Assembly (NCBI GenBank): GCA_944323335.1
Contig: CALUSB010000007.1
Coordinates: forward strand, 1 to 64,000
Direction: 5' to 3'
DNA from: Candidatus Gastranaerophilales bacterium
Lineage (GTDB): Bacteria; Cyanobacteriota; Vampirovibrionia; Gastranaerophilales; Gastranaerophilaceae
Length of the DNA stretch: 64,000 bases
Part shown: one piece after another, positions 12,680 to 15,254 of the stretch
How the letters are laid out: each line of letters opens with the position of its first letter
How positions within the stretch are numbered: position 1 is the first letter of the stretch
Made by a program: the position numbers and the translations under genes
The notes under the pieces: model-generated
What the model saw: only the letters and a program-made list of their open reading frames with translations
Databases searched by the model: none
Told to the model about the DNA's origin: nothing

Positions 12680-12785
12680 AAAGTTAATTTTACCTGATGA
12701 AAAAATAATAAAATTACCCGGACAGGTAGATGCTCAAAATCCGTATGAAAAATCAACAAAAAACTTTTTTATTAATTATAAATTT

Positions 12786-12886
12786 CATTATTAACATTTT
12801 TTTAAAAAAATGTTAATAATATATTGCATTATTAACATTTTTTTGGTATTTTATTAATAAGATGGATATTTGTTAACATTTTTAAG
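12786..12886. promoter_or_regulatory. 34-bp perfect palindrome and repeated TTAACATT operator-like sites
   Basis: 12787-12820 is a perfect 34-bp palindrome (ATTATTAACATTTTTTT and its complement). The left arm recurs as a direct repeat at 12826-12844 (CATTATTAACATTTTTTT), and a third TTAACATTTTT ends at 12884, next to the AAGGA ribosome-binding site. Four copies of the core in about 100 bases before the Fic gene suggest cooperative operator binding; the TTAACATT core also occurs before the nearby XRE gene. Confidence 0.55.
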
Positions 12887-12892
12887 GAAAAT

Positions 12893-14020
12893 ATGAAGTA
12901 TAATTCCGGGGTCTATAAGCAACAATATAAATATAAAAGTTTTTATCCGACATTAATTAATCAAATGTATAAATGGGAAGACCCCAAAATAAATGTTCTC
13001 CTTGAAGAGGCAAGAGGAGCACTTGGCGAGCTTAATGCATTTTCAAAATTAATTCCGGATATTGACTTCTTCATAACAATGCATATTACAAAAGAGGCAA
13101 CCGATTCAAGTAAAATTGAAGGCACACACACCGGAATTGATGAAGCAATGTTGCCTGTAGAAGATATTTTACCCGAACGAAAAGATGATTGGCAAGAAGT
13201 TCAAAATTATATTTATGCAATGCATGAGGCAATTGATACATTAAAAGAACTACCTATAAGCATGAGACTAATATGTAAAATACACAAATCCTTGTTGGAC
13301 GGTGTCAGAGGAGAAAATAAACTCCCCGGAGAAATAAGAAAAAGTCAAAACTGGGTCGGCGGTTCATCAATCATGGACGCCAAGTTTATACCGCCTCATC
13401 CGGATGATTTAGCTGAATTACTTTCCGATTTGGAAAAATTTATAAATAATCCAAATTTAGAAATGCCCGAATTAATTAAAATAGCAATGACTCATTATCA
13501 ATTTGAAACAATACATCCATTTTGTGACGGAAATGGAAGAATGGGGCGTCTATTGATAACATTACAACTGATAGAAAAGGGCTTTTTAGATAAACCGACA
13601 TTGTATATTTCCAATTTCTTTGCTAAAAACAAAGAACTTTATTATGGGACATTAAGCTCGGTAAGAGAAACAGGAGATATGGAACATTGGATTAAGTTTT
13701 TTCTTAACGGAGTTTTAGAAACTTCAAAATCTTCTATAGAAAAATTCAAACAAATAATTAGAATTAAGGAAGAATCGGAAAAAAAATTATTAAACCTAGG
13801 CGCAAGAGCAAAATTGGGGAAGGAAGTGCTTAATTTACTATACTCGAGTATAATAATTGATACAAACCTTGTTGCAAAAAAACTAAATCTGACTTATCCA
13901 AAAGCCAATCGTATCATTAACGACTTTTTGGAATTAAGTATTCTTGAAGAATTAAACAAAGAAAAATTAAGAAATAAGAAATATTTCTTTAAGGAGTACA
14001 TGACTTTATTTATTGATTAA
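12893..14020 (+). CDS. Class II Fic-domain AMP-transferase
   Basis: 375 residues. The catalytic motif HPFCDGNGRMGR (H208) matches HxFx(D/E)GNGRxxR. The N-terminal Fic_N region carries the self-inhibitory SSKIEG motif (S72, E76, G77), the (S/T)xxxE(G/N) signature of class II Fic proteins. The C-terminus is a winged-helix-like segment (TYPKANRIINDFLELSILEE). Fic enzymes transfer AMP (or related groups) to protein hydroxyls. AAGGA precedes ATG 12893. Upstream repeats imply tight control. No antitoxin gene is adjacent, as expected when inhibition is internal. Confidence 0.93.
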   Translation: MKYNSGVYKQQYKYKSFYPTLINQMYKWEDPKINVLLEEARGALGELNAFSKLIPDIDFFITMHITKEATDSSKIEGTHTGIDEAMLPVEDILPERKDDWQEVQNYIYAMHEAIDTLKELPISMRLICKIHKSLLDGVRGENKLPGEIRKSQNWVGGSSIMDAKFIPPHPDDLAELLSDLEKFINNPNLEMPELIKIAMTHYQFETIHPFCDGNGRMGRLLITLQLIEKGFLDKPTLYISNFFAKNKELYYGTLSSVRETGDMEHWIKFFLNGVLETSKSSIEKFKQIIRIKEESEKKLLNLGARAKLGKEVLNLLYSSIIIDTNLVAKKLNLTYPKANRIINDFLELSILEELNKEKLRNKKYFFKEYMTLFID

Positions 14021-14061: not shown

Positions 14062-14134
14062 TGGGCAGTACTGGACTCGAACCAGCGACCCCCACAATGT
14101 CAATGTGATGCGCTACCAACTGCGCTAACCGCCC
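14062..14134 (-). tRNA. tRNA-Val (GAC)
   Basis: A 73-base cloverleaf on the minus strand: acceptor GGGCGGT/ACTGCCC, D-arm TAGCGCAGTTGGTAGCGC, anticodon loop TTGACAT (anticodon GAC, read as Val), T-arm GCTGGTTCGAGTCCAGT and discriminator A. CCA is not encoded. The 5' end abuts the first unit of a 92-bp tandem repeat array. Confidence 0.96.
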
Positions 14135-14410
14135 AAACTAACAAACCTATTCAATTTTCAACCGTTGGCAGCGCCGCGCTAAATATGAAATATCGCAAGC
14201 TTCGCTCACTCAGTGCGCCACCGCCCAAACTAACAAACCTATTCAATTTTCAACCGTTGGCAGCGCCGCGCTAAATATGAAATATCGCAAGCTTCGCTCA
14301 CTCAGTGCGCCACCGCCCAAACTAACAAACCTATTCAATTTTCAACCGTTGGCAGCGCCGCGCTAAATATGAAATATCGCAAGCTTCGCTCACTCAGTGC
14401 GCCACCGCCC
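14135..14410. repeat. Three tandem 92-bp repeats abutting the tRNA-Val 5' end
   Basis: Three near-identical 92-bp units start at 14135, 14227 and 14319, followed by the first bases of a fourth. On the minus (tRNA) strand each unit starts GGGCGGTGGCGCACTGAGTG, echoing the tRNA-Val head GGGCGGTTAGCGC, and ends in the AT-rich leader that precedes the tRNA (TTGAATAGGTTTGTTAGTTT). GGTGGCGC near its start can pair with GCGCTGCC further along (8 bp, two G-U), so a transcript would fold. The same unit occurs next to tRNA-Ala. It fills the gap between the Fic gene and the next ORF. Confidence 0.9.
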
Positions 14411-14512
14411 AAACTAACTATATTTAACAATAAAATAAGCGTAAACACAACCATGCAAAAAAATATTTTCACACTACTTATAGTAAAGCATACTTAAAGA
14501 AAGGTTGTTGAA

Positions 14513-14878
14513 ATGATTCAAAATAATATAAGCTTTGGTGCTTTAAAAATTTCCCCCGACAAAATTACAAAAAGAGCCGTTACTCAATATGTAGACTGTA
14601 TGGACACAGCAAGAGTTATGCGCAACTCTCTTGATAAAATAGACCTTGAAACAGGCCTTACACCGGTAATAATTAAAGGCGAAATAATACCCGATGCAAA
14701 AGATGCAACAGGCAAAAATTTCTCAATTTTATTTAAGGCTTTTAACGGCAAAGACGAACAAGACGCTCTAAGCAAAATTGCAGTAGAAAAAGGCGATTTT
14801 CAATCTTCAAGGGCAAATCTCTTTGAAAAATTTGCAGATGAAATCATCACAAAAATCAAAACCGTTATAAACCGCTAA
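14513..14878 (+). CDS. Hypothetical protein with N-terminal SFG motif
   Basis: 121 residues beginning MIQNNISFGALKIS. AAAGG lies ten bases before ATG 14513, in the same AAAGGTTGTTG context seen at two other small genes here (11829, 17838). There is no signal peptide or membrane segment. The short N-terminal Asn/Ile-rich leader ending in (S/N)FG resembles that of the debranching enzyme at 15255. It lies between the two tRNA/repeat loci. Unknown function. Confidence 0.72.
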   Translation: MIQNNISFGALKISPDKITKRAVTQYVDCMDTARVMRNSLDKIDLETGLTPVIIKGEIIPDAKDATGKNFSILFKAFNGKDEQDALSKIAVEKGDFQSSRANLFEKFADEIITKIKTVINR

Positions 14879-14942
14879 CTTTACATTTTGACATAAGCCA
14901 AAACTTGCATTATTGTTATATTGTTAGGTTTGTGGTGTAAAA

Positions 14943-15015
14943 TGGAGCGTACGGGAGTCGAACCCGTGACCTCAACACTGCCAGTGTTGCGCGCTACCAA
15001 CTGCGCTAACGCCCC
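14943..15015 (-). tRNA. tRNA-Ala (GGC)
   Basis: A 73-base cloverleaf on the minus strand: acceptor GGGGCGT/ACGCTCC, D-arm TAGCGCAGTTGGTAGCGC, anticodon arm CAACA-CTGGCAG-TGTTG (anticodon GGC, Ala), T-arm ACGGGTTCGACTCCCGT and discriminator A. CCA is not encoded. Its 5' end directly abuts the same 92-bp repeat found at tRNA-Val. Confidence 0.96.
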
Positions 15016-15199
15016 AAACTAACAAACCTATTCAATTTTCAACCGTTGACAGCGCCGCGCTAAATATGAAATATCGCAAGCTTCGCTCACTCAGTGCGCC
15101 ACCGCCCAAACTAACAAACCTATTCAATTTTCAACCGTTGGCAGCGCCGCGCTAAATATGAAATATCGCAAGCTTCGCTCACTCAGTGCGCCACCGCCC
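15016..15199. repeat. Two tandem 92-bp repeats abutting the tRNA-Ala 5' end
   Basis: Units start at 15016 and 15108, and a third breaks off after AAACTA. They match the array at 14135-14410 almost base for base; one visible difference is GTTGACAG for GTTGGCAG in the first unit. The units carry the tRNA-Val-like head (GGGCGGT) although this tRNA begins GGGGCGT, so the array cannot be a simple local duplication of tRNA-Ala. Confidence 0.9.
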
Positions 15200-15254
15200 A
15201 AACTAAAAGCATATTAAACCAAACACACAATATAATCAATATTAAAGGAGAATT

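Follow-up and report, generated by a model that had tools for sequence, protein, structure and literature searches.

Many tRNA genes of a gut bacterial family related to cyanobacteria are flanked by fold-back tandem repeats. Two such loci were analyzed in a 64,000-nucleotide stretch of a Candidatus Gastranaerophilales contig (the window), where 92-bp units directly adjoin the genes for tRNA-Val(gac) and tRNA-Ala(ggc). A unit combines a partial copy of the end of the neighbouring tRNA gene, a hairpin insert, an inverted copy of the first arm and the gene's own flank, which is a boxA leader in units at the 5′ end and a trailer or terminator in units at the 3′ end. From sequence comparison we tentatively interpret the units, with a little less than even confidence, as self-derived palindromic satellites of tRNA genes. 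As a rule a tRNA gene is short, clean and under strong constraint; many of those studied here carry self-complementary copies of their own ends. We know of no described element of this fold-back design, and no description of such tRNA repeats was found in open-access papers.

tRNA-derived units in the window and its genome

An earlier, sequence-only reading of the window had claimed that three units abut tRNA-Val(gac) and two abut tRNA-Ala(ggc) with precise junctions. This was confirmed by the coordinates obtained with Tandem Repeats Finder (TRF), ARAGORN and Infernal (Table 1). TRF detected a period of 92 at 14128-14418 (3.2 copies, 100%) and at 15013-15206 (2.1 copies, 99%). The tRNA-Val(gac) and tRNA-Ala(ggc) genes were placed at c14061-14135 and c14942-15016 by ARAGORN and at c14062-14134 and c14943-15015 by Infernal; by both programs they are intact, which is not the arrangement of a split or permuted tRNA gene. 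Nor do the units form a CRISPR-like array, being contiguous and without unique spacers; four of the five are identical, and the unit at 15016-15107 differs by one base (GCTGCC to GCTGTC). A search of the whole 1.67-Mb, 49-contig assembly revealed no further copy of the 92-bp unit at E<=0.001. One match, at G000:C4:33766, was dismissed as chance, since it falls in apparent coding sequence with no tRNA nearby. For the unit core, five matches were found in the window against 0.01 expected, which excludes chance. The closest named records carrying the 92-bp unit include a Candidatus Gastranaerophilales metagenome-assembled genome (MAG).

In 5′ units, a copy of tRNA nucleotides 1-14 is followed by a hairpin insert standing where the tRNA D-loop would be, often by sense nucleotides ~20-28, then by antisense to nucleotides ~28-8, the boxA-like core and the leader. 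The 3′ part of each such unit is antisense to the D-arm of its own tRNA. The 3′ units are a mirror image of this design on the opposite strand, consisting of T-arm antisense, hairpins, a copy of the tRNA 3′ end and a trailer, often with a terminator. Snap-back junctions occur in some units, e.g. GTAGAGC-TT-GCTCTACCAAC. The sequence-only reading had described a tRNA head, a replaced body and a leader, and had proposed a tRNA-derived, satellite-like repeat. The sequences support both the anatomy and this interpretation; the antisense D-arm part, the boxA-like core and the existence of own versions at about half of the tRNAs, including opposite-strand versions at 3′ ends, had been missed.

In the MAG holding the window (G000), Rfam RF00005 identified 34 tRNAs, whose flanks were read. 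About 20 of the 34 bear their own unit, 90-110 bp long or approximately one tRNA plus spacer, on one flank (5′ or 3′) or on both. The 14-nt core TTGAAAATTGAATA recurs at other tRNAs of this genome, each with its own unit. Units were found at the 5′ ends of Leu-tag, Arg-cct, Asp, Val-tac, Met, Arg-ccg, Phe, Arg-tct, Asn, Pro, Trp, Gly-tcc, Lys-ttt and Leu-caa and at the 3′ ends of Leu-tag, Arg-cct, Asp, Phe, Trp, Glu, Leu-cag, Leu-caa and His, and none were seen on the flanks of Thr, Ser, Cys, Gln, Lys-ctt and Gly-gcc. An upstream segment of 10 nt or more that is antisense to the tRNA beside it was present at 14/32 tRNAs in G000, 12/34 in G008 and 16/34 in G007, with 17/891 pairs in a swapped-tRNA control. 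Stretches of 11-17 nt exactly antisense to the 5′ half of the same tRNA are frequent, and become rare when tRNAs are swapped. Separately, the last 280 bases of G000:C41:6000-7176 (L364) contain an apparent tRNA-Met-type 3′ array, where the flanks of a type-(a) hairpin (see below) are antisense to the Met T-arm. Larger and more complex inserts were observed at tRNA-Tyr and in the spacers of the Thr/Tyr tRNA cluster, at the end of G000:C8 (L092) and in G185 (L230, L235).

Copy number varies between species: tRNA-Val has three units in G000 and one in G008, and tRNA-Ala has two in G000 and none in G008, where the empty site lies directly at the tRNA. The Ala gene bears Ala-headed units in G003 and G013. 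Since units at Ala are Ala-headed in these two genomes and absent from G008, the Val-headed copies at the window's Ala gene point to local transfer and are best read as Val-type units moved from the neighbour. The sharing of one repeat by two tRNAs would therefore be secondary spread rather than the work of an element targeting any tRNA. A unit of another antisense register may sit closest to the tRNA, as at Phe in G002.

Ten contigs of the window genome (C5, C11, C19, C25, C27, C29, C37, C39, C43 and C46) end inside boxA/tRNA arrays. True copy numbers may therefore be higher, and short-read MAGs probably show arrays as shorter than they are. Such contig ends would also be expected if the arrays were artefacts of short-read metagenome assembly. 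We regard this as very improbable, since many independent assemblies contain arrays in the interior of contigs, with units that have diverged and periods that are not the same, and since even the window units are not all alike, one base being changed.

Table 1. Features of the two window loci
Feature	Position	Strand	Basis
tRNA-Val(gac), intact	14062..14134	-	ARAGORN; Rfam RF00005, 64.6 bits
5′ unit 1 at tRNA-Val, 92 bp	14135..14226	-	sequence, TRF, genome search
Unit 1, boxA-like core TTGAAAATTGAATA	14148..14161	-	motif recurrence; match to 16S leaders
Unit 1, antisense arm GCGCTGCCAAC, pairs with tRNA GTTGGTAGCGC, one G.U	14164..14174	-	sequence, fold, tracking of tRNA changes in relatives
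Unit 1, hairpin body CTGAGTGAGCGAAGCTTGCGATATTTCATATTTAG	14179..14213	-	insert family comparison
Unit 1, tRNA head copy GGGCGGTGGCGCA, like tRNA nt 1-14	14214..14226	-	sequence; comparison with relatives
5′ unit 2 at tRNA-Val, 92 bp	14227..14318	-	sequence, TRF, genome search
5′ unit 3 at tRNA-Val, promoter-proximal, 92 bp	14319..14410	-	sequence, TRF, genome search
Candidate promoter TTTACG-17-TATAGT	14417..14445	-	consensus scan; not functional evidence
tRNA-Ala(ggc), intact	14943..15015	-	ARAGORN, Infernal
Val-type 5′ unit 1 at tRNA-Ala, one substitution	15016..15107	-	sequence, genome search
Val-type 5′ unit 2 at tRNA-Ala	15108..15199	-	sequence, genome search

The boxA-like core and pairing on the 5′ side

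The unit core is the same as the boxA of the rRNA leaders of this lineage. The sequence before 16S is TTGAAAATAGAATA in G000, ATGAAAATTAAATA in G039 of the same family and TTGAAAACTGAATA in G018 and G029 of two other families; a 16S model gave no match in the genus, and the G000 leader was located instead in a contig-end fragment. In a core-enriched sample the core was present at 127 of 206 loci, compared to 3/176, 12/180 and 5/176 in control windows. In most cases it ends 0-14 nt ahead of the tRNA gene. We infer that the boxA-like core may bind NusB/S10.

The match to 16S leaders, the own genome included, and the position just before the tRNA are what would be expected of functional leader modules, in which hairpin and boxA form an rRNA-type (nut-like) antitermination or RNA-chaperone site. 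The antisense beside boxA would then pair transiently with the D-arm of the emerging tRNA, and a tRNA-specific bistable leader would tune its folding or output. When the last unit is folded together with tRNA-Val, the antisense is predicted to pair with the D-arm of the tRNA, and the tRNA 3′ end with the head of the unit, which makes a bistable leader physically possible; the z-score of this fold is modest (-1.47). We consider leader modules of this kind rather unlikely, since the Thr, Ser, Cys, Gln and Gly-gcc tRNAs and orthologues in sister genomes lack units, and since 3′ units behind terminators mirror the design yet carry no RNA constraint. Similarly doubtful is the specific proposal that the family controls many tRNA genes through such leaders, each made from its own tRNA, with boxA-tethered antisense and a decoy head acting as a bistable switch or folding chaperone whose strength is set by tandem copies.

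Two further observations favor leader modules. The first is an RNA-type mismatch bias confined to the 5′ side: mismatches to the tRNA among 61 distinct 5′ antisense segments comprise 15 G.U and 0 A.C (Fisher p=0.0007), compared to 5 and 6 among 43 3′ segments. The second is that the antisense tracks substitutions in the tRNA, at nt 17 of Val-gac (6/6), nt 18 of Arg-ccg (3/3) and nt 12 of Leu-gag (8/8), as counted in clean columns only, because one-base offsets of tRNA starts spoil part of the table. Together they fit either constraint on a transcript or re-derivation of the antisense from the tRNA. Stems show compensatory changes, e.g. TCGGC-GGA-GCCGA and TTGGC-GAA-GCCAA at Val-tac. Nothing could be learned from RNAalifold alignments that mixed unit types (Met, Phe). 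The stem proposed earlier inside the window unit was recovered in the minimum-energy fold, where GGGCGGUGGCGC pairs with GCGCUGCC. The unit folds at -26.8 kcal/mol in the sense and -12.6 kcal/mol in the antisense orientation, and its stability does not exceed that of shuffled sequences (z -0.53).

Hairpin inserts and the origin of the units

One family of inserts, here called type (a), has the form CTCTGCCGA-stem-loop-stem-GAGAGG, with constant ends and stems that are variable yet complementary. Type-(a) hairpins reach 86 copies per genome and are found both in tRNA units and elsewhere, where they are nested inside other repeats. At tRNA 5′ ends 20 lie on the same strand as the tRNA and none on the opposite strand; at 3′ ends seven are opposite and two are the same. 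They thus point inward from either end of the gene. Their ends are inverted (CTCT/AGAG), and no target-site duplication is apparent by eye. The window insert belongs to a different family, which is common to the Ala and Arg-ccg units and, more loosely, to those of Arg-cct, Trp and Pro-ggg. Dispersed CTCTGCCGA...GAGAGG hairpins were observed in G113, G102, G296 and G274 (e.g. L344, L345, L348), at 35-86 per genome within longer repeats; their appearance suggests a separate family of palindromic mobile elements.

Insert families common to unlinked tRNAs, the dispersal and nesting of type-(a) hairpins, and insertion into the loop of the first arm in nearly fixed orientation to the gene end could all be accounted for by enzyme-mobilised palindromic elements. 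Here a transposase or recombinase that works on single-stranded hairpin loops would have moved a REP- or MITE-like hairpin into the D- or T-loop of a copied tRNA, leaving the unit as the footprint of that insertion. We hold this to be improbable. A fixed element leaves unexplained an antisense arm specific to its own tRNA, no target-site duplication was apparent by eye, no transposase was linked to the units (no RAYT search was made), and the units were not found in viral contigs, phages or plasmids.

Four features instead argue for the origin at the DNA level that we favor for self-derived satellites: the strand symmetry, the derivation of units from the tRNA beside them, the snap-back junctions and the dispersal of hairpin inserts. 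Units would be born by fold-back template switching at either end of a tRNA gene, and hairpin elements that also occur dispersed at other sites would sometimes join them. The units would expand by tandem duplication, and conversion would homogenise and move them, as with the Val units at Ala. The 5′ units would be transcribed, because they are placed between promoter and tRNA; the second hexamer of the candidate promoter identified by consensus scan stops 7 nt ahead of the first unit head. Self-complementarity may be kept in these units since it would lock the copied tRNA head in a closed hairpin and leave boxA single-stranded, with the real tRNA free to fold and be cut out. The main effect would be to insulate a repeat that is itself largely selfish or neutral, and the additional boxA sites would be a side effect. 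RNA-type constraint on the 5′ side only suggests either a need for harmless folding or a leader function, and we favor harmless folding.

Several points weigh against self-derived satellites. Birth by template switching is deduced from end products; no intermediate event and no link to a reverse transcriptase or transposase were seen, with no RAYT search of the genome made. RNA-type constraint and antisense arms that track tRNA changes could equally reflect function. The G.U test is small and its related sequences are not independent, and the sense strand folds better than the antisense in only 14 of 22 isoacceptors (Wilcoxon p=0.009).

If the units were born as DNA, they preserve in nature a record of how tRNA genes underwent fold-back template switching, one that can be followed across many independent events. 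If they are functional, individual tRNAs would be controlled through antisense leaders coupled to antitermination signals of the rRNA type. In both cases, the arrays help to explain why these MAGs break at tRNAs, and they are easily overlooked by annotation.

Distribution, known systems and neighbouring features

A tandem boxA pair at one-unit spacing was found in 66 of the 383 genomes of the order, representing 19 of 52 genera, one of them in another family; a reversed-pattern control gave zero matches in all 383. The fold-back pattern of one D-arm type was found in 17 of the 383, with zero in the control. Almost no units were present among the tRNAs read in the near-complete G015, which belongs to another genus, and in two other families. 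Searches of viral contigs and of phage and plasmid collections gave no similar sequence, and a phage- or plasmid-borne mobile element was rejected on this ground. A known RNA family other than tRNA was likewise rejected, since only tRNA reached the gathering score in Rfam scans, with no RtT, T-box or other riboswitch.

RtT RNA repeats of tRNA operons such as E. coli tyrT have been discussed (PMC4986893). They resemble the units as repeats within a tRNA transcription unit that are released upon tRNA processing; they differ in being known from few operons and in lacking antisense fold-back and boxA, and the window units have no Rfam RtT match. Within each RtT repeat one end of a tRNA is copied. 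Dispersed hairpins, conserved ends and covarying stems link the type-(a) insert to REP/BIME and further short palindromic repeats, but REP has no tRNA-specific head or antisense arms, and neither tandem arrays nor boxA belong to it. With boxA/nut of rRNA leaders the units share the core sequence, the position upstream of a stable RNA and the hairpin before boxA, whereas here boxA is tandem, one per unit, at tRNA genes, and the hairpin is made from tRNA sequence. Sponge mitochondrial elements are also described as hairpin-forming repeats that invade intergenic regions (PMC2800124), but they are organellar. Permuted and split tRNA genes also present tRNA parts in an unusual arrangement (PMC3978253), whereas here the complete gene stands intact beside the parts.

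A 41-bp AT-rich tandem repeat lies at window positions 12767-12860, and the same consensus was found at the same tRNA-Val locus in the relative G011 (L073). Directly behind tRNA-Val, at 13400-14020, raw sequence reading revealed a gene with a Fic-like HPFxDGNGR motif.
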